Origin: Pseudanabaena sp. PCC 6802
GTDB lineage: Bacteria > Cyanobacteriota > Cyanobacteriia > Pseudanabaenales > Pseudanabaenaceae
Reading direction: 5' to 3'
Assembly: GCF_000332175.1 (NCBI RefSeq)
Contig: NZ_KB235914.1
Location: 4,371,793 to 4,435,792 of the forward strand
Length of the DNA stretch: 64,000 nucleotides
Each line of letters begins with the position of its first letter. The first letter of the stretch is position 1. This document shows, one piece after another, positions 10,629 through 64,000 of this stretch. The notes beneath the pieces are model-generated. The model saw nothing but the letters and a program-made list of their open reading frames with translations. It did not search any database and was not told the DNA's origin. Position numbers and translations under genes: made by a program.

Positions 10629-10645
10629 GGTAGACAAGGCTCGCC

Positions 10646-11857
10646 CTAATTATTAGATCGATCTGCGATCGCATATTGACGGCGCGTGAAGATTGCTAAT
10701 AGCAATACCAGGAAGGTCAATCCACCAGCAAGATAGAGAGAATAGCTATAGGTGATGGGGCGATTTTTATCGATGAGGGCACCAGCAATTACAGGCCCGA
10801 TCGCATTGGATATACTGAGATATGATGAATTCAGTCCTAACGCTATGCCTTGCTCCTCTGGTTTAGCATTGAGCGAAATCAAGGCGTTGACTGCGGGTTG
10901 CACTAGAGAATTGAATAGAGAGAATACAATACTAACTGCCACAAAGTAGACGATATTCTGCCACACTGGCATCAAAACGAACGTGGTACTGCGGATCAAA
11001 AGACCCATAAACAGGATTTGCGTCACATTGAGCCTTCGATTTAATGCTGGGATCCCCGCTGTTTGCATAATTACACCCAGCACCCCAAATATAAAAAACA
11101 TCATGGTTAAAGCTTCATTATTCTGTCCCAACACGTTGAGGAAGTAAGGCTGAAACGCAAACGTAAAGATCGTAAAGGTGGTGCCGATTAGAAAATTGAC
11201 GATCAAGAGAATTCCAATTTTAGGAATAGCTAAACCTTTAATTAAACTGTCCAAACCCAAATCGAAGATATCGATCGCTTTCGCTCCTCTAAAAGATAAT
11301 TGCTCGGGCTTTTGCTCTAACGTCTCAGGCAAATAAAAGATGGTCAGGAGGAGCGCGATCGCTGCAACCATGCCAGACACGACAAAAGATGCCCCTAACG
11401 AAATCTTCTGAGCCAGCAAACTCACGGCTGGCCCCAACACAAAGCCCAAACCAAAAGCTGCACCGTTAATACCAAAAGCCCTGGTTCGATTTGCAGGTGT
11501 AGTTACGTCTGACATGACAGCCTGCGCTACTGAGTTATTGCCACCCGTGATGCCATCCAGAAATCGCGCCATGAATAGAATTGCCGCATTTGGAGCAAAT
11601 CCCGCGATCGCGTTCGCCACGACCGTACCAAAGAGGCTGACGATCAAGAGCGGCTTTCTGCCAAAGCGATCGCTCAGCTTACCAATTACCGGAGTTGCAA
11701 AGAACTGGGCGATCGAGTAGGTAGCAAACAACAAGCTCGTATCGAAATCGCTAAGTTGATATTGCTTGCCATATAGATAAATAACCGGGATGAGAATCGT
11801 AAGGCTAAGTGAATTAATAAAAGAAATGAGTGCAATAATCCAAAAAGTCCGATTCAT
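10646..11857 (-). CDS. MFS transporter, DHA1/tetracycline-exporter type
   Basis: The 403-residue protein has twelve predicted helices and the DHA1 loop motif GKLSDRFGRKPLLI after helix 2. Motif C (GFVLGPAVS) is in helix 5, as in antiporter-type drug exporters. A long central loop (about 185-205) separates the two halves. It is transcribed toward the antiporter gene, ending 17 bases from it. Substrate cannot be told from sequence; drug or metabolite efflux by proton exchange is the family norm. Confidence 0.88.
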   Translation of the reverse strand: MNRTFWIIALISFINSLSLTILIPVIYLYGKQYQLSDFDTSLLFATYSIAQFFATPVIGKLSDRFGRKPLLIVSLFGTVVANAIAGFAPNAAILFMARFLDGITGGNNSVAQAVMSDVTTPANRTRAFGINGAAFGLGFVLGPAVSLLAQKISLGASFVVSGMVAAIALLLTIFYLPETLEQKPEQLSFRGAKAIDIFDLGLDSLIKGLAIPKIGILLIVNFLIGTTFTIFTFAFQPYFLNVLGQNNEALTMMFFIFGVLGVIMQTAGIPALNRRLNVTQILFMGLLIRSTTFVLMPVWQNIVYFVAVSIVFSLFNSLVQPAVNALISLNAKPEEQGIALGLNSSYLSISNAIGPVIAGALIDKNRPITYSYSLYLAGGLTFLVLLLAIFTRRQYAIADRSNN

Positions 11858-47300: not shown

Positions 47301-49242
47301 TGGTGGCAACACCAGTTTAGAAGCGATCGCCTGTGGATTGCCGATTGTGACTCTACCTGGCGAGTTCATGCGAGGTCGTCATACCTATGCCATGCTCAAA
47401 ATTTTGGCGATGGAAGATACAATCGCCCAGAACGAATCTGAATACATTAGCATTGCGGTACGCCTGGCGCAAGATCCCGATTGGCGCAGAGATGTGGTTG
47501 AGAGAATGCGATCGCGGCATGGGGATCTCTATGAGGATACTACTTGCGTAAGAGCCTTAGAGGATTTCTACATGGCGATAACCAGTTCTCAGAAATCCGA
47601 GGAAATTCTTTCAGAGGGCATCTCGCACCAGCAAGCTGGCAGGTTGGAAGAAGCAAGGCAACTGTATCGCAAGATCTTATGGCAACAACCTCACGATTTC
47701 AACGCTCTCTACCTGTCGGGTACCATTGCCTATCGTTTGGGTAACAACAGGGATGCGATTCGCTACTTGCGACAAACGATCTTCCTGCGCGGCGATCATG
47801 CCGAAGCGCATAAGAAATTGGGAGATATTTTTCTAGAGCAAGGTGAACCCGAAGAAGCGATCGCCGCCTATCAAAACGCCGTCACCTATAAGCCAGAATA
47901 TTTTGACGCTCACTTCAATTTGGCAAACCTCCTTTGGCAAACTGGTGATGGCGATCGGGCTGTCTTTCACTACCAACAGGTAATCGAGCGCAATCCTAAC
48001 TTTGTCCTCGCCTATAGCAATTTAGGTGCCATCCTTTACGATCGGGGCAAAGTCGAGGAAGCAACTGACTGCCTGCGCCGCGCCTTAGAAATCGATCCCG
48101 ATCTGGCAGAGGCTAATTACAACTTGGGGACGATGCTGTTTAAGCAAGGTAAATCCGATGCAGCATTACCCTACCTGGAAAAAGCGATCGCGCAGAATCC
48201 CCAATCTGCCGAGGCGCATAACGTGCTGGGCAATAGCTTGAGAGAACAGGGAAAACTGCACGATGCCATCGATCGCTATAGAGAGGCGATCGCGCTCAGT
48301 CCAGATTATGCTGAAGCGCATCGCAACCTCGGTACCGCCTTACTGACCCAGGGCAATTTCGAGCAGGGGCTAGCTGAGTATGAATGGCGCTGGCAAATGC
48401 CAATTTTTCAGCAAGATCCAGTATCATCTCTCATACAGCCGTTGTGGGATGGTTCCGATCTCGCTGGCAAGAGCATTCTCATCCACTCCGAGCAGGGCTA
48501 TGGCGATACGATTCAATTTATCCGCTATCTATCATTGCTCAGAGAGCGTAATGCCCGCTTGGTTGTAGCTTGCCCAACGCCGCTGATCCGACTTTTAAGT
48601 CATATGGAGGGGATTGCCGCGATTGGCGATCGCTACGAGCAATTGCCTGCAACTGACTGGCGCATTCCCTTAATGAGTTTGCCGCGCCTATTTGGTACTA
48701 CTTTAGAATCCATTCCCAAGCGCGTTCCATATATTTCTGCTCCAAATGCACCCGATCTGGAATTCAGAGCGCCGCATCATAATATCCACGTTGGCTTGGT
48801 TTGGGCTTCTAAACCAGGGCATTTGACTGCGAATAAACGCTCCTGTCCGTTTAGTCTATTATCGTTAGTTCTCAGCATTCCTGGCATCTATTTCTACAGT
48901 TTGCAAAAAGACGTTCCCAGTTCCGAACGGCACCTGTTAGACGCGCACCACGATCGGATTACCGATCTCGGCCATCAGATCGGCGACTTTGCCGACACCG
49001 CCAGTCTCATTAGCAAAATGGATTTAATTATAACTGTCGATACGGCAGTAGCGCACCTGGCGGGAGCCATGGGCAAGCCCGTATGGGTATTGCTGCCGTA
49101 TGCATCCGACTGGCGCTGGTTATTGGATAGAGATGATAGTCCCTGGTATCCCACTATGCGACTGTTCCGCCAAAAGCAAATTGGCAATTGGGAAGGGGTA
49201 ATTACTAGAGTTGCGATGGATCTGAGAAAATGGATTAATTGA
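44305..49242 (+). CDS. TPR - GT41 (SPINDLY/OGT-like) - TPR - GT9-like glycosyltransferase
   Basis: The 1645-residue protein begins with three blocks of tetratricopeptide repeats (about 20-170, 180-370, 415-640), split by a charged linker (~372-415). A GT41-type domain (about 725-1090) follows. It has IGYISPNLKGHAGVAWSLGW with the conserved His750, YLACQSLYKYLP with Lys917, and DSIGWSGGNTSLEAIACGLP for the UDP-sugar site. GT41 enzymes add a sugar, usually GlcNAc, to Ser/Thr of proteins. More TPRs (~1098-1355) and a GT9-like domain (~1355-1645) complete it: HSEQGYGDTIQFIRYL, NKRSCPFSL, ITVDTAVAHLAGAMGKPVWV. No signal peptide. First gene of the locus; the next ATG follows its stop by two bases. 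Confidence 0.9.
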   Translation: MIPEIEFRSEEDLGIIDSLQNKLEEAIFHQHEGFFRQAKRLYKEVLAQDPKHAEALHRLGSIECELGRFEVGVNLINSALELNPNIVEAHISKGKCLSRQGRLSEAIAAFERAIEIDPNLADAYQHLSIALKDSGNLEAANFYKLKALTLAPSLPNPPSNLSSNLSFGLDESFKSLPEEIELIQQKLEEAHAHHSEGFTNQAKNLYEEVLTLQADNFDALYMLGTLAYESGKIADGLDLLKKAMLAQPENAEVCCQIGNGFYKLGNLDDAIARYRQAVNLNSNYTRAYYNLGIALHKTGDLEGAVDSLEKAIALRGDDPKLLYHLGAVLQQQGKFQAALGRYQKALELKPNFVRASRALVNLVASIQEFANVPSPQTPSDSGRLDREDREPTKPERSDADQKPENIEAIDRDRKLEQLKQLLRAEPKSAELYGQIGDIQHQLGNFEAAIAAYQKATEIDPKSVEAHFELASIFLKLNQPQAVIHYCQQIIAIDPLHAEAHWMYGVALTQVNSLDAAISHLHQAIAFKPDYADAFSSLGAIYVLQGKLDEAIAYLQRGRVFAPNAVDLLYNLAGALKQKEKWYEALEYYQQIIKIQPNYALAYQKCGEILVEDNQIEEAIAYFQKLLSYQDDNPIANRLSRLALPVLYDNEEEIGYWRYRYEEGLQKYIDACDLSTEKSQKLALAGISYCTNFYLTYQAKNDLELQRQYAEFVQRVMAANYPQWTQKIEMPPLGKDEKIRIGYISPNLKGHAGVAWSLGWLRQRDRSKFEVYSYFTGRFPDETTALFQAESDRFRHIPDSFEAICEQVRQDNLHILVFPDIGMDAQSLKLAVLRLAPIQCACWGHPITSGSPNIEYFLSGDLMEPENAQSHYSEILVRLPKLGFCYPKPQLPRDRKTRKDFNIPEDAIVYLACQSLYKYLPQHDRIFVEIAQRVPNAKFVFLCRTTAHVHDQFYRRLQKAFAAAELDVARFCIMLPKQTGDDYLSVHLASDIFLDSIGWSGGNTSLEAIACGLPIVTLPGEFMRGRHTYAMLKILAMEDTIAQNESEYISIAVRLAQDPDWRRDVVERMRSRHGDLYEDTTCVRALEDFYMAITSSQKSEEILSEGISHQQAGRLEEARQLYRKILWQQPHDFNALYLSGTIAYRLGNNRDAIRYLRQTIFLRGDHAEAHKKLGDIFLEQGEPEEAIAAYQNAVTYKPEYFDAHFNLANLLWQTGDGDRAVFHYQQVIERNPNFVLAYSNLGAILYDRGKVEEATDCLRRALEIDPDLAEANYNLGTMLFKQGKSDAALPYLEKAIAQNPQSAEAHNVLGNSLREQGKLHDAIDRYREAIALSPDYAEAHRNLGTALLTQGNFEQGLAEYEWRWQMPIFQQDPVSSLIQPLWDGSDLAGKSILIHSEQGYGDTIQFIRYLSLLRERNARLVVACPTPLIRLLSHMEGIAAIGDRYEQLPATDWRIPLMSLPRLFGTTLESIPKRVPYISAPNAPDLEFRAPHHNIHVGLVWASKPGHLTANKRSCPFSLLSLVLSIPGIYFYSLQKDVPSSERHLLDAHHDRITDLGHQIGDFADTASLISKMDLIITVDTAVAHLAGAMGKPVWVLLPYASDWRWLLDRDDSPWYPTMRLFRQKQIGNWEGVITRVAMDLRKWIN

Positions 49243-49244
49243 TT

Positions 49245-52200
49245 ATGACAGTACGTGACGGTGAACTCGATCTATTAGATGTCGGAGTTCAGCACGTAGA
49301 TGTGCTGTTGGGAAGGGCGATCGCCTCTCAAAAATCCGGTCAGATCGGTGCAGCAGAATGCCTATACCTACAAATCCTTAAACAACAACCAGACCAAATT
49401 GATGCATTGCAAAATTTAGGCACGATCGCCTGCCAGCAACAGCAATTCGAGCGCGGCATTAATTTACTGAGCCAGGCTATAGCGATCGCGCCCGATCGCG
49501 TTGGTATCCACACCAATCTCGCTCTGGCATACATTGCTATGGGGGATCTGGATGCGGCGATTCCTCATTATCAAAAAGTTATAGACTTGCAGCCAGATTG
49601 CACCCCAGCCTATCTCAGGCTATCACAGGCACTGATCGAGCGATCGCGGTTGGCAGAAGCGCAGGACTATTTAGAGAGATTGCTAGCACGCCAACCCGAT
49701 TGCGCTGATGCCTATTGGGATCTCTGTGCGATTTTGCGCCAAACCGATCGCTACGCCCTATGGCGGCAGACTGCCGAACAATACATGCGGTTCTGTCAAG
49801 ATTCCGATGCGATTGGTGCGGCGATCGCCACCATCCAGGCCTACTATAAAACTGGAATGCACGCTGAAGCTCTCCAGAAATTAGAAGAACTGGAAGCGCA
49901 GATCTATCGAGATGCAGGCGAACTATCAGATACAAATATCGGGCGCATCTATTTTCTGATTCTCTTCGCTATCTTTCGCCTGAGAGACGATTTAGAAGCA
50001 AATAGCAAGTTAGCAAAGTTAATTGGGCAACTCTACGCCAAAAGCGCTCGCAAAACCATCGATGCCATCCCTCGCAAATCGTTAGAACCCGACAGAGATC
50101 GCGACAACTTAGCGAATTCCCATTCTCAGCAAGATCGCTTGCGCATTGGCTTTATGTCCGTAAATTTTAGACGACATCCCGTTGGTTGGTGTATCGCGGA
50201 CGCGCTTCAGTCGCTATCGCGGCTCGCTCCCCATATCTACCTCTATGCCACCAGCGAATTTAAAAGGGATGACCGCACAGAAGTATTTGAGAACATAGCA
50301 AGTAAATGCAACTGGAAGGGAAACCGCTGGCAGCAACAGACACAATCTGAAACTTTCAAGAACCTCAACGATCTAATCGCCGAAATCGAGGAAGATAATT
50401 TGGACGTGCTGATCGACCTAGATTCTTTAACTGCAAGCAGACATCCAGAAATCCTGGTCAGAAAACCAGCACGACTGTGCTTGTCGTGGCTGGGCTTTGA
50501 TGCGCCGTTTCTCTCGACCGATAACTATAACCTGGGCGATCGCCATACGCATCCAGCAGGAATCGAACCATATTATCTCGAAACCATAATTCGATTACCA
50601 GATTCGCATATGGCTGTGGCTGGTTTTGCGAGCGTTCCTGTAGACCGCCAAGCCCAGCGTAAAGCGATCGGAATTAAAGCGCAAGAAATAGCCTATCTCT
50701 GCGTTACTCCCAGCATCAAGCTCAATTATCCAACGGTAGAAGCACATGCGCGCATCCTAAAATCCATTCCAGATAGCAGATTGCTTTACAAAGGCAGAGG
50801 AGATCTAGAGGTTGTGAAATCGCTCTATCACCAGATCTGCATCAACTATAATCTCGATCGCGATCGCATCAAGTTTCTACCACTGACAGCAACCGAAGAA
50901 GAACACAGAGGCTCATACGCGATCGCTGATGTCCTCCTCGACTCTTATCCCTATAACGGTGGCAGTCACACTTTAGAGGCGCTCTGGTTTAATTTACCCA
51001 TAGTGACGCGCATGGGCGAGCAAAGTTTTTCCAGGATGGGCTACTCGTTTCTGACCACCCTAGGAATTACAGACGGCATTGCGCGTAACTGGGATGAATA
51101 TGTGGAATGGGGCATTCGCCTCGGCCAAGATCGCGCTTTAAGGGATGCGATCGAAAAGCAACTGCTCGCATCAAAGCAGCCCGATCGCCTCTCGCCACTA
51201 TGGAACCCCGATAAGCTTGCCAGAGATATGTACGGCATGTTTGAGTCGGTATTAGCAGGACAAAGAGACAGCGACGCGGCAATTTACTTTGAACTTGGTA
51301 ATAACTTGTGGCATCGAGGCAACGTGGCCGAATCTGCCATGCGCTACCGTCAGGCGATCGCGCTGCAACCAGATCGTGCTGAAGCATGGGGTAACTTAGG
51401 GACGGTTCTGCATAGCGAGAACAAACTAGAGGAGGCGATCGCCCATTATCAGAAATCTCTACGACTCAACTCACATAACTTGACAATCCAATCGAATCTG
51501 GGTAAAGCATTCAAGGCACTAGGTCAAGACGATCTGGCGATCGCCTGTTACGAACGCGCGCTCGAGATCGATCCCCAAAACCTGCATCCATATAATCGAT
51601 TGGGAGAGATATTTTTTGCTCGTCGCGACTGGCAAAAAGCAAGGGACTGCTTTCAGCAGGCGATCGAGATCGACCCTAACTATGCATTTTCGCTTAACCG
51701 ACTCGGAGCTATTCACCTGGAATGGCAACGGGTAGATGAGGCCATTATCTATTTCGAGCGAGCGATAGGCTGCGATCCGGAATTCGTTAACGCCCACGTA
51801 AACTACAGTTTAGCCCTACTACTCAAAGGGGAATATCGGGCTGGCTTCGTCGAATACGAATGGCGCTGGCAAGAGCAAGAATTCCTGGCGCAAAATCCTA
51901 CTTTCTCTACACCCGTATGGGATGGTTCCGATCTCCAGGATAGAACTCTTCTAATTTATGCCGAACAAGGCTTAGGCGATTTTATCCAGTTTATCCGCTA
52001 CCTGCCTTTAGTAAAAGCTAAATGCAGCGATCGCGGTAAGATTCTGGTTACCTGTCCGGCATCGATAATTCCCTTACTCAGCGATAGCAACGATCTGATT
52101 AAAGATGTCGATTTGATTGCAGTAAATTCTCCCCTCCCCCCATTCGATCTTTGCGCTCCCCTATTGAGCTTGCCTCGTATTTTGGGAACTGCTGTTTCTA

Positions 52201-55200
52201 ACATCCCATCTGTCGTTCCTTACCTATTTGCCAAGCCCGATCGCATGACGATCCCGGAGCGATCGCAGCAGGATCGATTGCGGATTGGCGTGGTCTGGGC
52301 AACGTGCAGTGCTAGCTCGGAGACTGGTAAGCGCTCCTGCCCCCTCGAATTGTTTCAGCGGCTAATCGATTCTAACCTGGGAACGTTTTACAGCTTGCAA
52401 ATGGAAATTCCTCCTGCGGACGAGGATTTATTTGAACGCCTGGGCGATCGCATTGTGGATTTGCGCGATTGCATCCAGAATTTTGCCGATACAGCGGCGA
52501 TCGTCGAACAGATGGATTTAATTATTTCGATCGATACTGCTGTGGCGCACCTGGCGGGCGCAATGGGTAAGCCAGTCTGGTTGCTACTGCCTTTTGCCGC
52601 TGACTGGCGCTGGATGCTAGAAAGAGAGGACAGCCCCTGGTATCCTACCATGCGATTGTTTCGCCAAGCACGGAGCGACGATTGGGCAGGAGTTATGGGT
52701 AGACTAGTTGTAGCCTTAAGAGATTTCATGCGAGGGGAGGTTATAGTGCGATCGGAGTCGGAGCCGTTAAATCTGGATATTTTAAATCTCGATATCTTGC
52801 TGCAAACAGCGATCGCCCACCATCAAGCTGGTAGGAGATCGGATGCCGTTGAGGTATGTAAAATCATCCTGGATCGCCAACCTGATAACTTTAACGCTCT
52901 GTATCTTATGGGTTTGCTTACCTATGCTGAGGGGCGCTGGCTAGACGCACAGAACTATATCGAGCGAACCATTGCTCTCAAGAGCGATCATGCTGAAGCA
53001 TATAAGAAATTAGGTGATATTTTCAAGGAAAAAGGTGAAAGACAAGCGGCGATCGCCGCCTATAAACGCGCCATAACCCTAAAGCCCAAGTATGTTAACG
53101 CATACTATGCCCTGGGCTGTATTTTAGGCGAGCAAGAAGATTACCCCGAACTTGTCGAAACTGCCATTGTCAATTTTCAACAGGCTCTGACTCTGAAGCC
53201 AGACTATGCGATCGCGCACTATGGTTTGGGTCTTTGTTATAAATCCTTAAATCAGTTGGATCGAGCGATCGCGGCGTTTCAGCAATCTGTATTTTGCGAT
53301 CCCAAATATACTGACGCGCACGTCGCTCTAGGTTTGACATTGTTGCTCGCGGGAAATTTTGCGCCGGGATGGCAAGAGTATGAGTGGCGCTGGGATGCGA
53401 TCGATATTGCCAAGGAATCGCCGCATCTTTTCCCCGAACCTGTTTGGGATGGATCGGATTTTCGCGATCGAACGCTACTAATATATGCCGAGCAGGGACA
53501 CGGCGATCTCATCCAATTTATTCGCTATGTTCCCCTAGTCAGGGATAAGGGCGGTAGAGTCCTGCTAGCTTGTCCTCAGGAACTAATTTCTCTATGTGCT
53601 TGCTTAGAGGAGATACAGCTTATCTTGTGGGATAGAGAGAAAGCACTAGAGCGCGATAAACTCGCATTTGATATTCGCGTTCCTTTACTCAGCCTGCCTC
53701 GCATCTTGGGAACTACTATAGATACTATCCCCAACCGCATACCTTATCTATCTGTTCCTCTCCCCATAAAACCGCACCTTCAGATCGCCTCCCAAGAACG
53801 CTTAAAAGTTGGCCTGGTTTGGGCAACCCATAGCGCCAGTCAAACAGCTAAACGACGCTCGTGTCCGCTACCGTTACTGGAACGAATATGGGAGATTGAA
53901 GGAATAGCATTTTACAGCCTCCAAACAGAAATATCATCGCTAGAGAGAGAAAGATTAGCAGGTAAAGTACAGGATCTAAGCCCGTATATTAACGACTTTG
54001 CCGATACCGCCATCCTGATCGAACAGATGGATCTGGTTATTTCTGTGGATACGGCAGTAGCCCATTTGGCAGGGGCATTAGGCAAACCTGTATGGGTTTT
54101 ATTGAAGTTCCATCCCGATTGGCGCTGGCTGCTGGAACGCGAAGATAGTCCCTGGTATCCCACCATGCGCTTGTTTCGCCAATTACGCAGCAATGATTGG
54201 GAAGGGGTAATAGCAAGAGTAGTTGCTGCTCTGCAAGAATTTCGCAGTGGAGATGAGATGTCAATACCAAACTCACAACTACCTACCAGCACGCAAAGCT
54301 TGGATATAGATTCTCATGCTAAGCTGCAAACTGCGATCGCCCACCAGCAAGCAGGCAGGTTGGATGAGGCAGCCCAAATCTATCAACAAATTCTGCAACA
54401 GCACCCCGATGACTTTAACGCTCTCTATTTAGCAGGGGTAGTGGCCTTGCGCCAGAACCACCTCACTGAAGCAGTTAGCTATTTGCAACGCACGATCGCG
54501 CTCAAGAGCGATCACGCCGAAGCACACAGGAAACTGGGAGATATTTTTAAGCAACAGCGCCAGCCAGAGGAGGCGATTGCTGCCTACCGACAGGCGATTG
54601 CCTGCAAGCCTGACTATTGCGAAGCACATTATTTTATAGGCATCGTATTTTGGAATCAGGATAATTTCGAGCAAGCTGCTTTTCATTACCGACGGGCAAC
54701 AGAAATCAAACCAGACTATGCAGCAGCGCATGGCAATTTAGGAGCGGCTCTGTTCAAGCTAGGGAAAACCGATGAAGCGATTGCATGCTATCATCGAGCC
54801 TTGCAACTCGATCCCCACGATCTCCTCGCACTTTGCAATTTAGCCACAGCGCTAGCCGATCTAGGTAAGCTGGATGAGGCGATCGAGCATTGTCAAACGG
54901 CAATTCAAATCCAGCCTGATAGCCAGAACGCGCACTGCAATCTTGCCTATGTCTACCAGTGTCAGGGAAACACAGAAAAAGCAATCGCGGCATATCAAAA
55001 AGTCATCGACCTCAATCCCAACCATATTGACGCTCATATTGGCTTGGGCAATATGTACTCCAACCTCCAGCAGTACGAAAGAGCTATTGATGAATTCAAC
55101 CGTGCGATCGCCATCGACTCCAGTAATGCCAATGCCTATAACTGGTTGGGGTTTGTTTGCCTTGAGTTAAACCAGGTCGATGCTGCGATCGAGGCTTTCC

Positions 55201-58200
55201 GACATGCAATTAACTATAATCCCGACTATCCTGAAGCTCATCTAAATCTCAGTTTAGCTTTATTGCTCCAGGGCAACTATGCCGAGGGACTAGCCGAGTA
55301 TGAATGGCGTTCCCAACGTAGCGGTTTGGACAAGGATTCCCCGCACTTCTTTCCACATCCCGTGTGGGATGGCCAAGATCTACAAGGTCGAACGCTCTTA
55401 ATCTATTCCGAGCAAGGGTTTGGCGATTTAATTCAGTTTATTCGCTATATCCCCATAGCAAAAGCAAGATGTGGGTCGAATGGCAAAATCATTTTTGACT
55501 GCCAGGAGCCTGTTAGAAGGCTGTTCGAGCCATTTATTGACAAGACGGGTATTGAGATCCGTCCTAGGAATTTGCCTTTGCCACACTTCGATATTCGAGC
55601 ATCGCTACTGAGCCTACCTCATATTCTGGGGACGACGCTAGATACTATCCCTGCGCCAGAGCAATACTTATCAATTGGGAAGGATATCAATCCAGAAGCT
55701 ATCCGCAAGATTGGAGAGCGTCGATCGCTGCTCAAAGTAGGTTTAGTCTGGGCTAGCAAGCAAACTCATTCAACGGCTCCTAAGCGCTCCTGTCATTTAT
55801 CATCTCTTCTCCCACTCTTCGATCTAGTCAAAGATCTGGCAAACGGTCAAACTAATATCCATTTCTATGTTTTACAGAAAGAAATAAGCGATGCAGATCG
55901 ACCTCTGATGGAACAATATCAAGCAGAGCTAACCGACTTGAGCAATTATCTGGGTGACTTTGCCGATACTGCTGCCATTATCGATCGCCTCGATCTGGTA
56001 ATTACGGTCGATACTTCCGTCGCGCACCTGGCAGGTGCAATGGGCAAGCCCGTATGGGTAATGCTTCCCCTCGCCCCCGACTGGCGCTGGCTGTTAGAGC
56101 GCGAAGATAGCCCCTGGTATCCTACCATGCGCTTATTCCGTCAAGACAAAACAGGAGATTGGCAAGGAGCTATAGAAAGAATAGCTATCGCCGTGCGCGA
56201 GCTTTTAAGTATCGATCTTACAAATTCTCATATGAAGTCTGCAAAATCGTCGAAATCATCAAAACCCACGAAGCCTTCAAAATCATCAAAAAAATCGAAT
56301 AAGCGGAATAAAAGTCCTTATCCAGTAGAGTCTCCATTGCCAAATCTCGATATTCTAATTCAGGAGGCGATCGCCCATCACAAAGCTGGTAAGTTAGCTG
56401 AGGCAGAGGTTATCTATCAGCAGATTTTGCAATTGCAACCGCAACACTTCACCTCCTTACATATGCTAGGAGTATTGGCTTTACAAGCCGGGCAGCTTGA
56501 GACAGGTATTAGTTGGATTAAAAAAGCCGTAGCAGTCGATCCAACTAACGCTGAAGCTCATTCCAATCTAGGTAATGCTTTATCGGAATTGGAAAGACAT
56601 GATGAGGCAATTTCCCATTACGAACGAGCGATCGCGCTAAATCCTGACTTCGCAGATGCATATTACAACCTCGGCCTCGCGAATGCTGCGCGAGGTGATA
56701 TAGACAAAGCGATCGCTTGCTACCAACAAACAATTGCCATTAGCCCTACCTATGCTCAAGCCCATAATAATCTGGGCACTTTGCTGCAAAAGCAAGGTCA
56801 GTTCGAGCAGGCGAAAGATTGCTATCAGCAGGCGATTGCGATTAATCCCAATCATGCCGAAGCAAAATATAATTTCAGCATGCTTTTACTGCTGCTGGGG
56901 GATTTGAGGCAAGGGTTCTTGGAATACGAATGGCGTTGGCGCAGTCCGACTTTTCTTAGCGATAATCCAGCACCTTCATGCTCGCAACCACTGTGGGACG
57001 GAACCGATCTCGATCGTCGCACGCTTCTCATCTCCTGCGAACAAGGTTTTGGCGATGCCATCCAATTTAGTCGCTACTTCTCCTTAATCAAAAGGAAAGC
57101 AGAGAAGGTTATGTTTGTCTGCCCTCCACCTCTAGAGAAGCTATTCAGACAATTTGACGGAGTGAAACTCGTCCCACCTCACGCTCCCTTACCAGATTTC
57201 GATACTCACATATCCCTACTAAGCCTGCCCCGCATATGCGATACAGCCCTGGCAACTATTCCCGCAAGGATTCCCTACTTATCAGCACCGTCACCCGAAG
57301 AGATTGCAAGTCTTCTCAAGATCGACGATCGCACTAACACCTTTCGAGTTGGAATCGTGTGGGCGAGCAAAGCATCCCATCCTACGGCGGGCGATCGCAC
57401 TTGTCCGCTGAACATCCTGAAATCGCTTTTAGATATTTCTAACGTTAATTTCTACTGCTTGCAAAAGGAGATCGACAATAGCGATCGACACTTACTCGGA
57501 CAATATCAAGGGAAATTAACTATTCTCAGCGATCGCCTGCAAGACTTTGCCGATACTGCTGCCATAATTGCGCAACTCGACTTAGTAATTTCTGTTGATA
57601 CCGCTGTCGCGCATCTAGCGGGAGCAATGGGTAAGCCTACGTGGGTTCTACTGCCTTTCTCCCCGGACTGGCGCTGGATGTTAGAACGCGAAGATAGTCC
57701 CTGGTATCCAACTATGCGCTTGTTCCGCCAGGAGCGAATTGGCGATTGGACAGATGCGATCGAAAGGGTTGGCAACGCCTTGCGCGACTTGACTAACTCA
57801 GGTAGCCGAACGCTTGATGCGATCTCCAGCGTATCGATCGCTATGTCAATAGAGGAGAAATCAGAATTTCTCTCAGTGGATGACTTGAATCTAGATGACT
57901 TAATTAAAGAAGCGATCGCGCATCACAAAGCGGGCAAGTTGACTGATGCCGAAAGACTTTATCGCCGAATTCTCCAACACCATCCGCAGCACTTCAATGC
58001 TTTACACATGCTGGGAACGCTAGCCTCGCAACTTGGTCAACTTGAAACTGGCATCACTTATATCCAACAAGCCCTGACCCTAAATCCGCAGAGTGCTGAA
58101 GCTCATTCTAATCTCGGTTCTGCCTACAGCCAGCAAGGGAATTTAGAAAAAGCAATCCTCCATTATCGATCGGCTATTAGTCTGAAGCCAGACTACGCCG

Positions 58201-60413
58201 ATGCCCATAAAAACCTGGGACTGGCTTTACTCGCTGCTGGCAATCTGCAAGAAGGGTTTCGCGAGTATGAATGGCGTTGGCAAAGCGATAGCTTCAAACA
58301 GGGGAATCCCTTACCCAACTTCGTGCAGCCGTTGTGGGATGGCACGGATGCGAAGGAGCGCACGCTGTTGATTTACTGCGAACAAGGACTAGGAGATATC
58401 ATCCAGTTCAGTCGTTATATTCCTTTAATAGCATCTAAAGTGGGCAAGGTTATCCTGGATTGTCGCGAGCCATTAAATCGCCTGCTCGGTCATACCTTCA
58501 GGACGCTCGAAAACCTTCAGATCGCTCAACGTAATGTTCCTTTGCCTCAGTTCGACCTGCGCATTCCATTGGTGAGTCTAGCCCGTATTTTAGGAACTAC
58601 TCTAGAGACAATTCCCGCTCAAATTCCCTATCTGTCAGCACCTCAAGACACGAGCGGGATTGCAGCAGAGATTTCTCAGCACAAAGCACGGTTAAAAGTC
58701 GGACTTGTCTGGGCCAGCCAACCAGGTCACTCAACTACAGCTACGCGCTCTTGTCCGCTCGAACTTTTTCTGAAGTTATTAGACATTCCTGACATCAAAT
58801 TCTACAGTTTGCAAAAAGAAGTTAGCGATCGCGATGTGGAAATACTCGAACAAAATCGAGGAAAACTTCAGGACTTGCGGCATTATCTGGGAGACTTTGC
58901 CGATACCGCTGCGATCGTCCAATCCCTAGATTTAGTTATTTCCATCGATACATCTGTCGCTCACCTGGCTGGAGCTTTAGGCAAGCCCGTATGGGTACTG
59001 TTACCACACGTTGCCGATTGGCGCTGGTTGCAGGGGCGCGAGGATAGCCCCTGGTATTCCACCATGCGGCTGTTCCGCCAACCACAGCCAGAGCGATGGG
59101 ATGCAGTTATTACACGAGTAGTCGAGGAGTTAAATACGTCGATCGCCCAATACCAAAATCGTTCTTACAATCTCAAGTTAGACATCTCATCAACAGTAAT
59201 GACTAAACAAAATATTGGTCTTAACATGACTATTGGTTCCCCTACTGGTTGGGGTGTAGTTAGCACAAACCTGCTATTGCAAATACTTAAAAGCGATCGT
59301 TTCAGTCCATATCTCATAGCTGCTCCCGACTTCAATACGGGATTTGTCAATCCGTTATATCGACATGCGATCGCACCGTTGATTAGCGAGCAAAGACGAT
59401 TGCAGCAGATTGTCTCAAGTAATGCAAATAAGCTAATTTACGTTGACTTTCCAATAATTCACGTCCTGGATAATTCCAAACCCAAATACGAACTACGGAT
59501 ACGAGGAAAGCAGAATTATGGATATGCTGTTTTTGAGTCGTCTCATTTGAGTCCCGAAAAGATCGATTCTTTTAATAATTTCGACCTGATTCTAGTGGCA
59601 TCAACCTGGAATGCTAACATTTTGCACAACTATGGCCTCACAAATGTTCGACTAGCTATCCAGGGTATCGATCCGGCGATTTTCCACCCTGCCCCCCGCT
59701 CCGATCTATTCAGAGATCGCTTTGTTATATTCTCTGGTGGCAAACTGGAGTTTCGCAAAGGTCAAGATATCGTTGTGGCAGCTTTTAAGATTTTCCAATC
59801 TCGCCATCCCGATGCATTGCTAATAACTGCCTGGCATAATTTCTGGCCTATCTTTATGGCTGGGATTGAAAAAACTGGTAATGTGGTTGGGCTGCCAGCA
59901 TCAGATAGCAACCAAAATTTAAAGATTGCGGAATGGCTTGCTAATAATGGCCTACCGCCCAATTCATATATCGATTTGGGGTTAGTTCCCAATCACATTA
60001 CTCCCCAGATCGTGCGCGAGGCGGATGTTGCTTTATTCCCCAATCGTTGCGAGGGTGGCACTAACTTAGTTGCCATGGAGTGCCTCGCCTGTGGTGTCCC
60101 AACAGTTTTATCAGCAAACACAGGACACCTGGATTTAATTGGCGATTTGAAGGACATTGAAGGTGGAACGATTCGCCACTGCTATCCTCTTCGCCATCAA
60201 AAGCCCGTTATGCGACATCCTCATTTCAGTGGGGTTGAAGGTTGGGGAGAATCTGATGTTGAAGAGGTTGTAGAGGTGCTGGAACAAATTTATAACGACC
60301 GGACAGAGGCGAAACTTAGAGGTGCAAAGGGTACGTTATTTATGCAAGGGATGACATGGGAAAAACAAGTAGAGAAAATTCTGGATGCGATCGCCACCAA
60401 AATCTCAACTTAA
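49245..60413 (+). CDS. Giant modular TPR/glycosyltransferase protein (GT41-like + five GT9-like + GT4)
   Basis: About 3722 residues in one open frame. In order: TPRs (~25-200); GT41-like domain (~295-670) with NFRRHPVGW (His311), PSIKLNYP (Lys492) and DSYPYNGGSHTLEALWFNLP; then five TPR + GT9-like modules. The GT9-like domains lie at about 864-1165, 1372-1672, 2012-2325, 2552-2848 and 3000-3302. Each has YEWRW...WDGSDL, E-Q-G-x-G-D-x-I-Q-F-x-R-Y, DT-x-VAHLAGA and EDSPWYPTMRLFRQ. A Ser/Lys-rich linker (~2327-2365) precedes module 4. A GT4 domain ends the chain (~3315-3722: FSGGKLEFRKGQDIVVAAF, NRCEGGTNLVAMECLACGVP). ATG 49245 is preferred to TTG 49239. Cytoplasmic; acceptor and sugars unknown. 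Confidence 0.9.
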   Translation: MTVRDGELDLLDVGVQHVDVLLGRAIASQKSGQIGAAECLYLQILKQQPDQIDALQNLGTIACQQQQFERGINLLSQAIAIAPDRVGIHTNLALAYIAMGDLDAAIPHYQKVIDLQPDCTPAYLRLSQALIERSRLAEAQDYLERLLARQPDCADAYWDLCAILRQTDRYALWRQTAEQYMRFCQDSDAIGAAIATIQAYYKTGMHAEALQKLEELEAQIYRDAGELSDTNIGRIYFLILFAIFRLRDDLEANSKLAKLIGQLYAKSARKTIDAIPRKSLEPDRDRDNLANSHSQQDRLRIGFMSVNFRRHPVGWCIADALQSLSRLAPHIYLYATSEFKRDDRTEVFENIASKCNWKGNRWQQQTQSETFKNLNDLIAEIEEDNLDVLIDLDSLTASRHPEILVRKPARLCLSWLGFDAPFLSTDNYNLGDRHTHPAGIEPYYLETIIRLPDSHMAVAGFASVPVDRQAQRKAIGIKAQEIAYLCVTPSIKLNYPTVEAHARILKSIPDSRLLYKGRGDLEVVKSLYHQICINYNLDRDRIKFLPLTATEEEHRGSYAIADVLLDSYPYNGGSHTLEALWFNLPIVTRMGEQSFSRMGYSFLTTLGITDGIARNWDEYVEWGIRLGQDRALRDAIEKQLLASKQPDRLSPLWNPDKLARDMYGMFESVLAGQRDSDAAIYFELGNNLWHRGNVAESAMRYRQAIALQPDRAEAWGNLGTVLHSENKLEEAIAHYQKSLRLNSHNLTIQSNLGKAFKALGQDDLAIACYERALEIDPQNLHPYNRLGEIFFARRDWQKARDCFQQAIEIDPNYAFSLNRLGAIHLEWQRVDEAIIYFERAIGCDPEFVNAHVNYSLALLLKGEYRAGFVEYEWRWQEQEFLAQNPTFSTPVWDGSDLQDRTLLIYAEQGLGDFIQFIRYLPLVKAKCSDRGKILVTCPASIIPLLSDSNDLIKDVDLIAVNSPLPPFDLCAPLLSLPRILGTAVSNIPSVVPYLFAKPDRMTIPERSQQDRLRIGVVWATCSASSETGKRSCPLELFQRLIDSNLGTFYSLQMEIPPADEDLFERLGDRIVDLRDCIQNFADTAAIVEQMDLIISIDTAVAHLAGAMGKPVWLLLPFAADWRWMLEREDSPWYPTMRLFRQARSDDWAGVMGRLVVALRDFMRGEVIVRSESEPLNLDILNLDILLQTAIAHHQAGRRSDAVEVCKIILDRQPDNFNALYLMGLLTYAEGRWLDAQNYIERTIALKSDHAEAYKKLGDIFKEKGERQAAIAAYKRAITLKPKYVNAYYALGCILGEQEDYPELVETAIVNFQQALTLKPDYAIAHYGLGLCYKSLNQLDRAIAAFQQSVFCDPKYTDAHVALGLTLLLAGNFAPGWQEYEWRWDAIDIAKESPHLFPEPVWDGSDFRDRTLLIYAEQGHGDLIQFIRYVPLVRDKGGRVLLACPQELISLCACLEEIQLILWDREKALERDKLAFDIRVPLLSLPRILGTTIDTIPNRIPYLSVPLPIKPHLQIASQERLKVGLVWATHSASQTAKRRSCPLPLLERIWEIEGIAFYSLQTEISSLERERLAGKVQDLSPYINDFADTAILIEQMDLVISVDTAVAHLAGALGKPVWVLLKFHPDWRWLLEREDSPWYPTMRLFRQLRSNDWEGVIARVVAALQEFRSGDEMSIPNSQLPTSTQSLDIDSHAKLQTAIAHQQAGRLDEAAQIYQQILQQHPDDFNALYLAGVVALRQNHLTEAVSYLQRTIALKSDHAEAHRKLGDIFKQQRQPEEAIAAYRQAIACKPDYCEAHYFIGIVFWNQDNFEQAAFHYRRATEIKPDYAAAHGNLGAALFKLGKTDEAIACYHRALQLDPHDLLALCNLATALADLGKLDEAIEHCQTAIQIQPDSQNAHCNLAYVYQCQGNTEKAIAAYQKVIDLNPNHIDAHIGLGNMYSNLQQYERAIDEFNRAIAIDSSNANAYNWLGFVCLELNQVDAAIEAFRHAINYNPDYPEAHLNLSLALLLQGNYAEGLAEYEWRSQRSGLDKDSPHFFPHPVWDGQDLQGRTLLIYSEQGFGDLIQFIRYIPIAKARCGSNGKIIFDCQEPVRRLFEPFIDKTGIEIRPRNLPLPHFDIRASLLSLPHILGTTLDTIPAPEQYLSIGKDINPEAIRKIGERRSLLKVGLVWASKQTHSTAPKRSCHLSSLLPLFDLVKDLANGQTNIHFYVLQKEISDADRPLMEQYQAELTDLSNYLGDFADTAAIIDRLDLVITVDTSVAHLAGAMGKPVWVMLPLAPDWRWLLEREDSPWYPTMRLFRQDKTGDWQGAIERIAIAVRELLSIDLTNSHMKSAKSSKSSKPTKPSKSSKKSNKRNKSPYPVESPLPNLDILIQEAIAHHKAGKLAEAEVIYQQILQLQPQHFTSLHMLGVLALQAGQLETGISWIKKAVAVDPTNAEAHSNLGNALSELERHDEAISHYERAIALNPDFADAYYNLGLANAARGDIDKAIACYQQTIAISPTYAQAHNNLGTLLQKQGQFEQAKDCYQQAIAINPNHAEAKYNFSMLLLLLGDLRQGFLEYEWRWRSPTFLSDNPAPSCSQPLWDGTDLDRRTLLISCEQGFGDAIQFSRYFSLIKRKAEKVMFVCPPPLEKLFRQFDGVKLVPPHAPLPDFDTHISLLSLPRICDTALATIPARIPYLSAPSPEEIASLLKIDDRTNTFRVGIVWASKASHPTAGDRTCPLNILKSLLDISNVNFYCLQKEIDNSDRHLLGQYQGKLTILSDRLQDFADTAAIIAQLDLVISVDTAVAHLAGAMGKPTWVLLPFSPDWRWMLEREDSPWYPTMRLFRQERIGDWTDAIERVGNALRDLTNSGSRTLDAISSVSIAMSIEEKSEFLSVDDLNLDDLIKEAIAHHKAGKLTDAERLYRRILQHHPQHFNALHMLGTLASQLGQLETGITYIQQALTLNPQSAEAHSNLGSAYSQQGNLEKAILHYRSAISLKPDYADAHKNLGLALLAAGNLQEGFREYEWRWQSDSFKQGNPLPNFVQPLWDGTDAKERTLLIYCEQGLGDIIQFSRYIPLIASKVGKVILDCREPLNRLLGHTFRTLENLQIAQRNVPLPQFDLRIPLVSLARILGTTLETIPAQIPYLSAPQDTSGIAAEISQHKARLKVGLVWASQPGHSTTATRSCPLELFLKLLDIPDIKFYSLQKEVSDRDVEILEQNRGKLQDLRHYLGDFADTAAIVQSLDLVISIDTSVAHLAGALGKPVWVLLPHVADWRWLQGREDSPWYSTMRLFRQPQPERWDAVITRVVEELNTSIAQYQNRSYNLKLDISSTVMTKQNIGLNMTIGSPTGWGVVSTNLLLQILKSDRFSPYLIAAPDFNTGFVNPLYRHAIAPLISEQRRLQQIVSSNANKLIYVDFPIIHVLDNSKPKYELRIRGKQNYGYAVFESSHLSPEKIDSFNNFDLILVASTWNANILHNYGLTNVRLAIQGIDPAIFHPAPRSDLFRDRFVIFSGGKLEFRKGQDIVVAAFKIFQSRHPDALLITAWHNFWPIFMAGIEKTGNVVGLPASDSNQNLKIAEWLANNGLPPNSYIDLGLVPNHITPQIVREADVALFPNRCEGGTNLVAMECLACGVPTVLSANTGHLDLIGDLKDIEGGTIRHCYPLRHQKPVMRHPHFSGVEGWGESDVEEVVEVLEQIYNDRTEAKLRGAKGTLFMQGMTWEKQVEKILDAIATKIST
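56226..56340 (+). repeat. Low-complexity Ser/Lys linker coding region
   Basis: Imperfect AAATCATCAAAA-type repeats encode SHMKSAKSSKSSKPTKPSKS followed by SKKSNKRNKSP. It separates GT9-like module 3 from the TPRs of module 4. The other module joints lack such a basic linker. Confidence 0.8.
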
Positions 60414-60472: not shown

Positions 60473-61249
60473 GTGATTCAACAAACTTTACTTCCCCAAA
60501 GAGATTATGTATCTCCTGGGCTGCAAATTGTCCAACCCGATCTATATTTCCCTAATATGGTTGCTGGAGATCCTAACCTTTGTCCCTGGAAATATTTGCG
60601 AAGAGAGATTCCCCACAACTGGTATGTAGATCGGCGACATCCTATCTGTGGGTTCCTGAGTCGAGATGAAGCTCATATCCTGTATAACACTGCTTTGAGG
60701 TTTAAGGGTAAACGAGCCTTAGAGGTTGGTTGCTGGATGGGTTGGTCTGCCTGTCATTTAGCGCTAGCTGGCGTAAATTTAGATGTAATCGATCCCCTAC
60801 TATCTCAATCTCCCAATCGCGAAAGTGTAATCTATTCTCTAGAATCAGTTGCCAAAGCTTTCGGCACTTTCGGCGAGGTAGTCCTAATTTCGGGTTTCAG
60901 TCCCCAAAAAGTTGAGGAACTAGCCATGCAGACCCAGCGAAAATGGTCGCTCATTTTTATTGATGGCAACCATGATGCTCCCTATCCTATAAATGACACG
61001 ATCGCCTGCGAGAAGTACGCAGAAGACGATGCCATGATTATGTTTCACGATCTTACCTCCCCTGATGTAATGCAAGGTTTAGACTACCTCAGAGATAGAG
61101 GTTGGAAAACCAGAATCTACCAAACCATGCAAATTATGGGTGTAGCTTGGCGCGGGAATGTAGAACCAGTAGAACATATCCCAGACCCAAGGATCGATTG
61201 GGAACTGCCAGTACATTTACAAAATTATGTAGTTAGTGGTATGCCTTGA
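60473..61249 (+). CDS. Methyltransferase-like protein (Methyltransf_24 type)
   Basis: The 258-residue protein has a Rossmann SAM-binding fold. Motif I is RALEVGCWMGWSACHLALAG (~83-102), followed by LDVIDPLLS, the acidic IFIDGNHDAPYPINDTIACE (~162) and a metal-binding-type MIMFHDLTSPDVMQGLDYL. This pattern is that of the Methyltransf_24 / cephalosporin-hydroxylase-like group seen in sugar-modification loci. It starts at GTG 60473, with GAGG about eleven bases upstream, and is 59 bases after the giant gene. It probably methylates a sugar or glycan made by the neighbouring enzymes. Its TGA overlaps the next ATG by one base. Confidence 0.82.
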   Translation: MIQQTLLPQRDYVSPGLQIVQPDLYFPNMVAGDPNLCPWKYLRREIPHNWYVDRRHPICGFLSRDEAHILYNTALRFKGKRALEVGCWMGWSACHLALAGVNLDVIDPLLSQSPNRESVIYSLESVAKAFGTFGEVVLISGFSPQKVEELAMQTQRKWSLIFIDGNHDAPYPINDTIACEKYAEDDAMIMFHDLTSPDVMQGLDYLRDRGWKTRIYQTMQIMGVAWRGNVEPVEHIPDPRIDWELPVHLQNYVVSGMP

Positions 61250-64000
61250 TGACTGACTCTTTTTCAATTATTGTGCCAGCTTTTAATTGCGAGAGGGTAG
61301 TAAGCAAAACCCTGACAAGCATTGCTGAGAGTATTAATTTCTTTAAGCAACATTATGCGCGATCGCAGGAAGTAAGCGCTGAAATAGTAATTGTTAATGA
61401 TGCCTCAACCGATAATACATTGTCTTTACTAAAGGAGTTTGCCGACCGATACGTCTTTGTCAAAATTGTCAGTTCTAACCGTAATAGAGGAGCATCTGTT
61501 TCGAGAAATATAGGCGTAAGATACGCCCAAGGCGAGATTTTGTTTTTCTGCGATGCCGATGACCTTTTCTTACCCGAACACATCTATGTCTGCTTTATGT
61601 TGTTACAAGGTAGATCTGAAGGGATATCATCATTTCCACTGATTAGCGAGAATTACAATCTAATCGTCAGCTTGCCAGAAGATCGTATTAACGCACTCAG
61701 AACAGGTGTGAGGATTAAAGACAAAATTCACCCCCAATGGACTAAAGCCATTAGGAATAGTATCCCTCTTAATTTATGCGTTAGAAGGGAATGTCATGAG
61801 TTTATCGAAGGATTTCCCGAAGATGAGATTTACACAAAAGTGGGGACGGAAGATCTAACTTATCAAGTAGCATTATCTACATTTTATAAAATTGACAAGA
61901 TCGATATAGATACAGTTGAATATGTTAGATATCCTGGCAATAATTTAGACAAGCAACTAGCAAAGTTTAAACTCCCCCCAGGCGAATATCAAGGATCGCT
62001 CCACATCGATCCCGGTTTACTGAGAGAAGTGGAAGATGCAAGGCAGCAAAGAATATTGTATTTGCGCCAAAAACATTATGAGCGATCGCATCAATCCGAG
62101 CCTTCCCAGTTTAGAGATCGTTCTTTTAGCAGGGATGTAATTATTATTACTGGAGCGGATACGAAGTTTTTCGAGTTAGCTCAAGGAACTATTCGGTCAA
62201 TCCGAGATAAGCCTCAAGGTAAAGATGTGGCTATAGGATTCCTCGATCTAGGTTGCACTGCTGAAGAAATTAGGTGGTTGCAAGATCGCGTCGATATCAT
62301 CAAACAGCCAGTTTGGGATTTTGATTTTCCCAATCGAGAGCGATCGCCCGAATATTTAAAAGGGCTGCTAGCACGACCATTTTTACGACAGTATTTCCCA
62401 AATTTTGACATTTACCTCTGGATCGATGCCGATGCCTGGGTGCAAGACTGGTATGCAATTGAATTATTTATCCAGGGAGCTAACCGCAAGGGGCTGGCGA
62501 TCGTGCCCGAACTAGACCGATGTAGCAATAAGGAGTATGGCGGGCAAGTTGATTTTCAGCGTTATAAATCTAATCATTATAAGAGCTTTTTCGGCAATAG
62601 CGTAGCTGAGAAATTATGCACGTATCCCATGTTGAACGCTGGAGTTTTTGCGCTCCGTTGCGATGCGCCGCATTGGCAAATCTGGGAAAGCTTACTGCGT
62701 CAGGGATTGCAGAATTGTGCCAATTTCTTAACCGATCAGTTTGCGCTGAACTTTGCAATTTACGAGCATGGGTTGCTTGCTCAAACAGAGTTTCTGCCGG
62801 GCTGGTGCAATTGGTTACTACTGCACGGACTTCCCATGCTGGATAGTACTACATACAATCTGGTCGAGACCTATTTGCCGCACGTTCCTATAGGGATATT
62901 GCATCTTGCCGGAGGTTACAAGCAATTTAAACAGCTAAAACTATCAGCGATCGCAGGTGGGATAGTTGCCGTGAATATTCGCTATCCTGAATTCAAACAA
63001 CAACGAGAGAGAGTATCTGCACTTCAAGATCGAGTCAAAAGCGATTCTCTACCTTCAGGAGACTATATCTCTCAGGGTTTTGTCTCAATTTATCCAGATC
63101 TTTGTTTACCCAATATTGCGGTTAGCAACTCCAATGCGAGCGATCGCTCATACCAACACAACCGCTATTTCGATCGCCGCCATCCCGGCTTGCCATTACT
63201 CAGCCGCGATGAAGCACTTATTCTCTATAATATTGCGCTCCAATATAAAGGCAGAAGGGGACTGGCGATCGGCGCTCAGATGGGATGGACGTTGTGTCAT
63301 ATGGCGATCGTGGGTCTAGAACTAGATGTTCTGGATTCGATGCTAGGAGATAAAGAAGTGCTCCAAAGCATTAAGTCATCCATTGACTCTGCTAAAGAGA
63401 TATTTGGTACGATCTCTCAAGTTACTTTAGTTCCTGGCGATAGTTCCCAGGTTGTTGAAGAATTAGGCAACCAGTTGCAACGCCGTTGGTCTACGATCTT
63501 CATTGACAGTAGCTTTGATCGCTCGTCTGTTCGCCATCTGGCGATCGTCTGCGAACGATATGCCGAACCTGATGCCACCATCTTGTTTGCCAATGCCTCA
63601 GTGCCCGAGGTCGTCGCTAGCTTAAACGATCTCAAAAATAGGGGATGGCAGACAACGATCTATCAAACCCTGCAAGGCATGGCCGTTGCCTGGAGAGGCA
63701 ACATCCAGCCTATCAAGCATTACAGCGATCCCAAGCTAGGACAATCTGTCCGACTTCCCACGGCACCAGTCAAACATATTTTGCTGTGTACTGGCGATCG
63801 CGGTGTGGGCGGCGTGGCGAAATACAATCACTCCCTGCTCTGTGCCCTAGCCGAACGGGGCTACAAAGTCACCTGCGTCCAACCCCACGCCGTAGATACC
63901 GATGCTGTAAATATCCGCCAACAACTAGGCGTTCGGCATCTATGGCTCGACGATCGCCAAACTCAAGCAGAACTCAATCGCATCTTTAATACGAGTTCAG
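61249..64000 (+). CDS. Multidomain glycosyltransferase GT2 + GT8-like + decayed methyltransferase + GT4 (partial, runs off right edge)
   Basis: ATG 61249 starts an open frame of 917 codons reaching the edge. Residues 1-270 are GT2: FSIIVPAFNCERVVSKTLTS, IVIVNDASTDNTLSLL, FFCDADDLFLP. Residues ~293-590 resemble GT8: DVIIITGADTKFFELAQGTI, IYLWIDADAWVQDW with the DxD type metal site, MLNAGVFALRCDAPHWQIW. Residues ~604-837 are homologous along their length to the 258-residue methyltransferase just upstream (RRHPGLPLLSRDEALILYNI against RRHPICGFLSRDEAHILYNT). Motif I here is LAIGAQMGW, and IDGNHD is IDSSFD. From ~840 a GT4 N-terminus begins (ILLCTGDRGVGGVAKYNHSL). One-base overlap with the upstream gene. 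Confidence 0.87.
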   Translation, partial: MTDSFSIIVPAFNCERVVSKTLTSIAESINFFKQHYARSQEVSAEIVIVNDASTDNTLSLLKEFADRYVFVKIVSSNRNRGASVSRNIGVRYAQGEILFFCDADDLFLPEHIYVCFMLLQGRSEGISSFPLISENYNLIVSLPEDRINALRTGVRIKDKIHPQWTKAIRNSIPLNLCVRRECHEFIEGFPEDEIYTKVGTEDLTYQVALSTFYKIDKIDIDTVEYVRYPGNNLDKQLAKFKLPPGEYQGSLHIDPGLLREVEDARQQRILYLRQKHYERSHQSEPSQFRDRSFSRDVIIITGADTKFFELAQGTIRSIRDKPQGKDVAIGFLDLGCTAEEIRWLQDRVDIIKQPVWDFDFPNRERSPEYLKGLLARPFLRQYFPNFDIYLWIDADAWVQDWYAIELFIQGANRKGLAIVPELDRCSNKEYGGQVDFQRYKSNHYKSFFGNSVAEKLCTYPMLNAGVFALRCDAPHWQIWESLLRQGLQNCANFLTDQFALNFAIYEHGLLAQTEFLPGWCNWLLLHGLPMLDSTTYNLVETYLPHVPIGILHLAGGYKQFKQLKLSAIAGGIVAVNIRYPEFKQQRERVSALQDRVKSDSLPSGDYISQGFVSIYPDLCLPNIAVSNSNASDRSYQHNRYFDRRHPGLPLLSRDEALILYNIALQYKGRRGLAIGAQMGWTLCHMAIVGLELDVLDSMLGDKEVLQSIKSSIDSAKEIFGTISQVTLVPGDSSQVVEELGNQLQRRWSTIFIDSSFDRSSVRHLAIVCERYAEPDATILFANASVPEVVASLNDLKNRGWQTTIYQTLQGMAVAWRGNIQPIKHYSDPKLGQSVRLPTAPVKHILLCTGDRGVGGVAKYNHSLLCALAERGYKVTCVQPHAVDTDAVNIRQQLGVRHLWLDDRQTQAELNRIFNTSS

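Follow-up and report, generated by a model that had tools for sequence, protein, structure and literature searches.

FlmG of Caulobacter crescentus, an enzyme of cytoplasmic protein O-glycosylation, needs only its TPR domain to bind flagellins and carries a C-terminal GT-B domain for sugar transfer (PMC7591256). The megaenzyme described here, encoded in a 64,000-nucleotide stretch of the Pseudanabaena sp. PCC 6802 genome (the window), likewise joins TPRs and GT-B domains in one chain, probably a cytoplasmic one judging from its domain content. The likeness described here is one of layout, and FlmG differs in being a 596-aa protein with one TPR block and one transferase and with no GT4, GT41 or repeats. 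TibC and the bacterial autotransporter heptosyltransferases (4rap) resemble the repeated module of the megaenzyme in their GT9-type fold (Z 17.2), and TibC acts on protein; however, it is a single catalytic domain without TPRs that forms a dodecamer, according to the 4rap entry title, rather than a tandem chain. The GT41 enzymes OGT, SPINDLY and XcOGT share with the window protein the order of TPRs followed by GT41 and a sequence match of the GT41 domain, but they have one catalytic domain where the megaenzyme GT41 is one of seven. Capsule multienzymes (8qoy, 8a0m) also place several glycan-building activities on one chain, although with another domain set, no TPR-GT9 repeats and a poor global structural match. 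WbdA, LARGE1 and K4CP are two- and three-domain glycosyltransferases and thus carry more than one GT domain per chain, whereas the proteins considered here have five to seven repeated modules on TPR arms. LARGE1 and K4CP are named in PMC13411425.

The window contains one uninterrupted forward-strand frame (49245-60413, +), open from TTG 49239 or ATG 49245 to the stop at 60413 and encoding 3,722 aa; at the base composition of the window, a stop-free run of 3,722 codons would arise by chance with a probability of about 1e-82. Pfam and HMMs built in this analysis give the domain order TPR-GT41-[TPR-GT9-like]x5-GT4, placing seven sugar-transferring domains (one GT41, five GT9-like and one GT4) on a single chain, as the initial annotation had read it from the sequence (Table 1). 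TPRs precede every GT41 and GT9 domain by HMM, 3 repeats being recognised ahead of the GT41 and 5, 3, 10, 5 and 3 ahead of GT9 modules 1-5 in turn, and the TPR HMM found no block between module 5 and the GT4. The EYEWR motifs of the five GT9-like modules lie at aa 870, 1378, 2018, 2560 and 3007. The gene resides on a 4.58-Mb contig of a 5.62-Mb genome that is 99.7% complete.

Table 1. Coordinates (window positions) of the megaenzyme gene, its domains and the adjoining genes.
Feature	Position	Strand	Evidence
Upstream partner gene, 1,645 aa, TPR14-GT41-TPR8-GT9	44305..49242	+	domain HMMs, tree
Megaenzyme gene, TPR-GT41-(TPR-GT9)x5-GT4	49245..60413	+	open frame, domain HMMs
N-terminal TPR block	49401..49700	+	TPR HMM
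GT41 domain (OGT/SPINDLY-like)	50130..51272	+	Pfam PF13844, PDB sequence matches
TPR block 1, 5 repeats	51285..51779	+	TPR HMM
GT9-like module 1	51837..52745	+	HMM, module alignment
TPR block 2, 3 repeats	52995..53303	+	TPR HMM
GT9-like module 2	53364..54263	+	HMM, module alignment
TPR block 3, 10 repeats	54336..55304	+	TPR HMM
GT9-like module 3	55284..56222	+	HMM, module alignment
Ser/Lys-rich low-complexity linker, ends approximate	56241..56360	+	translation
TPR block 4, 5 repeats	56370..56852	+	TPR HMM
GT9-like module 4	56907..57809	+	module alignment, predicted structure (pLDDT 90, pTM 0.91)
TPR block 5, 3 repeats	57999..58271	+	TPR HMM, predicted structure
GT9-like module 5	58248..59162	+	HMM, module alignment, predicted structure
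C-terminal GT4 domain, common to whole family	59160..60410	+	Pfam, relatives, fold match
Class I methyltransferase (Methyltransf_24), 258 aa	60473..61249	+	domain HMM
1,232-aa protein, GT2 + region alignable to Microcoleus neighbour + weak Methyltransf_24 region + GT4	61246..64000, on to L009:5944	+	

As the megaenzyme ATG lies two bases after the stop of the 1,645-aa ORF, the two genes are likely co-transcribed and translationally coupled. The GT9 domain of the partner groups with the five of the megaenzyme in the tree, and the two-gene unit totals two GT41, six GT9 and one GT4 domains, which is larger than the unit originally noticed. The six GT9 domains of these adjacent genes share 47-54% protein identity and the longest exact repeat inside the 3,722-aa ORF is 26 bp, making repeat collapse very unlikely. 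The concern raised with the initial annotation, that the modules might be misassembled or collapsed repeats, is effectively answered by this low inter-module identity together with comparable chains in independent assemblies.

The GT41 domain scores 92.9-101.9 bits against Pfam PF13844, and in a PDB sequence search it matches SPINDLY (7y4i, E 1.6e-28) and XcOGT (E 2e-26). Aligned with SPINDLY, it keeps the His and Lys positions that we take to be the catalytic residues. With its place after TPRs and this conserved catalytic-region His and Lys, the domain is assigned to GT41, closest in sequence to SPINDLY and XcOGT, which are polypeptide O-glycosyltransferase types. Elsewhere in the window genome, five separate TPR-GT41 genes (751-868 aa) occur within about 17 kb (G000:C5:2644000-2663999), a split-gene counterpart to the fused array. 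At the other end of the chain, the C-terminal domain matches PF00534 (Pfam, E 1.3e-9) and has no real match in the PDB sequence search. In a predicted structure of the C-terminal 865 aa (TPR-GT9-GT4; pLDDT 87), this part reaches Z of about 30 to BshA, MshA and HepE, and the model assigns it a GT-B fold of GT4 type. The pTM of 0.55 makes the relative placement of the domains in that model unreliable; its top Foldseek row is the capsule multienzyme 8qoy, with a poor global fit (TM 0.27).

The GT9-like modules are distant in sequence from classical GT9 enzymes. Pfam GT9 touches each module over a motif of only about 33 residues (profile positions ~173-205), with scores close to the cut-off or under it. 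A profile comparison with canonical GT9 by hhalign covers no more than 67 columns, in the C-lobe (E 1.6e-5), and PDB sequence searches with a module or its profile gave no real match. NCBIfam matches (MamA, PilW, PrsT) were set aside as TPR-driven. With the C-terminal model as query, GT4 matches took up the VIA fold search, and the GT9 module was therefore run on its own AF2 model (module 4; pLDDT 90, pTM 0.91). Its best match is the GT9 structure 3tov (Z 18.8, rmsd 2.9, 252 aligned residues), followed by heptosyltransferase II (1psw, Z 17.5), TibC (4rap, 17.2) and WaaC (2gt1, 16.2). Overall, GT9 enzymes are the best VIA matches (Z 16.0-18.8, rmsd 2.9-3.5, 234-252 aligned), with non-GT9 rows at 13.0 or below. 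Structure prediction, a check proposed at the outset, thus bears out the GT9-like assignment (best Z 18.8): the modelled module has a GT9-type GT-B fold, and the assignment rests on this predicted fold rather than on Pfam. The only near-full-length Pfam GT9 match in the window genome is a separate 319-aa protein (G000:C5:3820477-3821151) whose closest sequence likeness is to the plant NDH subunit PnsB1 and which may be no sugar transferase. The donor of TibC is ADP-heptose, whereas no GmhA turned up in a search of six genomes (G000, G052, G039, G149, G001 and G045). As a short HldE/rfaE domain II protein is present in 6/6 of these genomes while GmhA was not detected, ADP-heptose made by the usual route is a doubtful donor for the GT9 modules.

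The genes downstream carry methyltransferase, GT2 and GT4 domains. Part of the 1,232-aa protein shares 43-50% identity with a gene that convergently adjoins the Microcoleus-clade arrays, and that neighbour gene also bears Methyltransf_24 and TylF methyltransferase domains. In two further genomes (L051, L073) GT2 and the same GT4 domain form a single fusion, and in G052 the GT2 is encoded next to the array by a gene of its own. Recurrence of the GT2/GT4/methyltransferase linkage beside independently expanded arrays supports one pathway that would make a methylated glycan. Another region of the 1,232-aa protein aligns with the neighbouring 258-aa methyltransferase at 45% identity. It matches Methyltransf_24 weakly, its glycine-rich motif is altered, and it has the appearance of a degenerate duplicate joined in between GT domains. 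Two RTX (GGxGxD) repeat proteins are encoded immediately after the operon (L009:6113-7018 and 9406-10953), and the G039 array has an RTX protein about 3 kb away. An RTX or oscillin-type surface glycoprotein was considered as acceptor and rejected as a general partner, since RTX genes, called by at least two GGxG[ND]D motifs within the fetched flanks, are near only two other loci. An 864-aa TPR protein with many near-identical 'LGADHPDVA' repeats is encoded at L010:4383-6977, with transposase genes nearby.

In order to place the chain in a family, relatives were collected by a search with the GT4 domain and then by a scan of named genomes. Dozens of cyanobacterial loci encode (TPR-GT9)n chains that close with the same GT4 domain, n running from 1 to 7, and by its sequence the window protein belongs to this class as defined in our analysis. 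Chains occur in Microcoleus, Tychonema, Oscillatoria, Laspinema, Trichodesmium, Okeania, Phormidesmis and Pseudanabaenaceae, among others. At least five GT9 modules are found in 24 other distinct loci, including a 3,325-aa chain on the complete chromosome of Microcoleus vaginatus HSN003. The largest chain, 4,144 aa in genome G052, carries seven GT9 domains and one GT4 (eight GT domains), and beside it lies a second gene of 2,247 aa with four GT9 modules and no GT4 (L138:1212-7952); eleven GT9 modules therefore sit at this one locus. The idea that the fusion is unprecedented is accordingly not supported, as larger ones exist. Of the seven-domain order, the (TPR-GT9)n-GT4 part recurs, whereas an in-chain GT41 is absent from all other GT4-ending chains examined. 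In even samples of the phylum, the GT4 domain was detected at E <= 1e-40 in 17/386 genomes, 13 of the 17 in frames longer than 2,000 aa; GT4 relatives found beyond cyanobacteria are about 360-600 aa long with no GT9 domain in the chain. The GT9-like domain was present in 77 of 194 genomes of another sample, mostly in single-module proteins of about 450-800 aa, in line with the earlier statement that single TPR-GT9 proteins are common in cyanobacteria. The giant modular enzyme is a recurring class in filamentous cyanobacteria, and no one-off or assembly error. Searches of the open-access literature returned no description of the family, a scope that leaves its absence from the literature unproven.

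Every module retains its catalytic motifs. The EQGxGD, R166, DT..H and DWRW motifs are near-invariant over 203 modules, and in the Microcoleus clade the median dN/dS is 0.13, 0.18, 0.20, 0.17 and 0.22 for modules 1-5, compared with 0.145 for the GT4 and 0.31 for one TPR linker. Because the catalytic motifs are near-invariant and dN/dS is 0.13-0.22 at each Microcoleus position, all modules look active. Across about 18 Microcoleus-clade loci, module order is conserved and the five positions form five separate, strongly supported clades, each recovered again in a 73-row IQ-TREE analysis; modules at the same position are 79-86% identical, those at different positions 57-64%. Between lineages, the tree groups modules by protein and not by position. 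The six modules of the window's two genes form one group (95/83), and 98% of bootstrap trees have a branch that separates them from all others; the six of G039 group at 98/99 and fifteen Microcoleus modules at 100/99 (IQ-TREE). Such grouping by protein indicates that each lineage multiplied or homogenised its arrays on its own, with the GT4 end remaining common to all; concerted evolution and independent duplication both fit the module sequences. The window, Microcoleus and Trichodesmium resemble one another in the order of their TPR-linker lengths, the third linker being long, but linker sequences have no clear positional match outside the Microcoleus clade. In a Trichodesmium erythraeum MAG (L059), modules 1, 2, 4 and 5 are close copies whereas module 3 has diverged, a pattern that points to gene conversion or duplication in the recent past. 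The fourth module of Laspinema palackyanum (L053) stands apart from the other Laspinema modules and may be an insertion before the GT4 from elsewhere.

The reading we favour, with a probability of roughly one half, is a cytoplasmic protein-glycosylating megaenzyme whose acceptor would be held by the TPRs. We infer that a polypeptide acceptor, long or repetitive, is held by the TPR superhelices in the way that the FlmG TPR domain holds flagellin, and that in the window's lineage the first sugar is likely added by the GT41, a domain of polypeptide O-glycosyltransferase type. The several GT9-like domains, apparently alike in donor and catalytic residues, would next attach one kind of sugar, either at many sites or step after step, the terminal GT4 would add the next or capping sugar, and the linked GT2, GT4 and methyltransferase genes would finish the glycan. 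A protein acceptor held by the TPRs is most likely because the GT41 resembles SPINDLY and XcOGT and because the TPR domain of FlmG selects its acceptor, and a single donor type for all GT9 modules is favoured because their active-site motifs are near-identical. Additional support comes from the fold of the GT9 module, with the protein heptosyltransferase TibC among its nearest matches, from the conserved motifs and low dN/dS of the modules, from the GT2, Methyltransf_24 and TylF genes beside the independently expanded Microcoleus arrays and from the GT2-GT4 fusions elsewhere. Against a protein-glycosylating role, the acceptor is only putative and the RTX genes downstream are no conserved neighbour, lipid-linked sugars are the classical substrates of GT9 enzymes, an in-chain GT41 is lacking from most relatives, and the position-specific conservation in Microcoleus hints that the modules may not be interchangeable.

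A less likely but serious alternative is a polysaccharide or glycolipid synthase in which the GT9-like repeats would elongate a lipid-linked or free polymer (sheath, capsule or O-antigen-like) and the TPRs would only dock partners. Classical GT9 enzymes build the LPS core, GT4 with GT2 neighbours is typical of polysaccharide loci, and the capsule multienzyme 8qoy heads the Foldseek rows despite its poor fit; yet the window GT41 is of the protein-modifying type, and no recognisable conserved export, Wzx/Wzy or initiating-transferase genes lie beside the arrays of relatives, on gene maps drawn from translations and clusters only. The initial annotation had proposed, as a plausible reading, something like an assembly line in which successive transferases extend a glycan. 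The repeated TPR-transferase chain, the motifs kept in every module, and the purifying selection and conserved order over the Microcoleus loci agree with that proposal, but different sugars per module find little support, as the likely donor and catalytic residues are the same and positional orthology does not extend across lineages. In its strict form, each TPR-GT9 would have its own acceptor specificity and add a defined sugar in turn, the order writing the glycan in the manner of NRPS or PKS systems. Frozen module order and identity in the Microcoleus clade, each position its own clade under purifying selection, would suit such a line, as would a module number that varies between lineages as lineage-specific glycans would need. 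Nevertheless, of the 112 columns fixed within all five Microcoleus positions, only two have at least three different residues among positions, the donor and catalytic motifs are invariant, and grouping by protein across lineages speaks against it, so that we consider it unlikely. Also unlikely is a template-free line, in which the TPR arms would hand the acceptor protein along, five to seven GT9-like modules and the GT4 would add sugars in module order, and glycan length and sequence would evolve by module gain, loss and conversion as in PKS and NRPS systems. Lineage-specific expansion or homogenisation, with four of five Trichodesmium modules close copies, would fit an avidity array of functionally identical modules multiplied only for local enzyme dose on a repetitive acceptor without order dependence, but the fixed positional identities in Microcoleus make this improbable. 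For a chain known from DNA sequence, an error of assembly, or several separate proteins in place of one, is extremely improbable given the divergence of the modules and the other loci with at least five modules, single-contig chromosomes among them.

Single TPR-transferase enzymes that glycosylate proteins are already known; a recurrent family with up to seven such modules and a terminal transferase would be a new kind of glycosylation machine. It would offer a ready-made scaffold for glycan engineering, and the range from n = 1 to 7 would be a natural series in which to relate the number of modules to glycan structure or to the number of sites. The hosts include ecologically important filamentous cyanobacteria, with Microcoleus in soil crusts and Trichodesmium in the open ocean.
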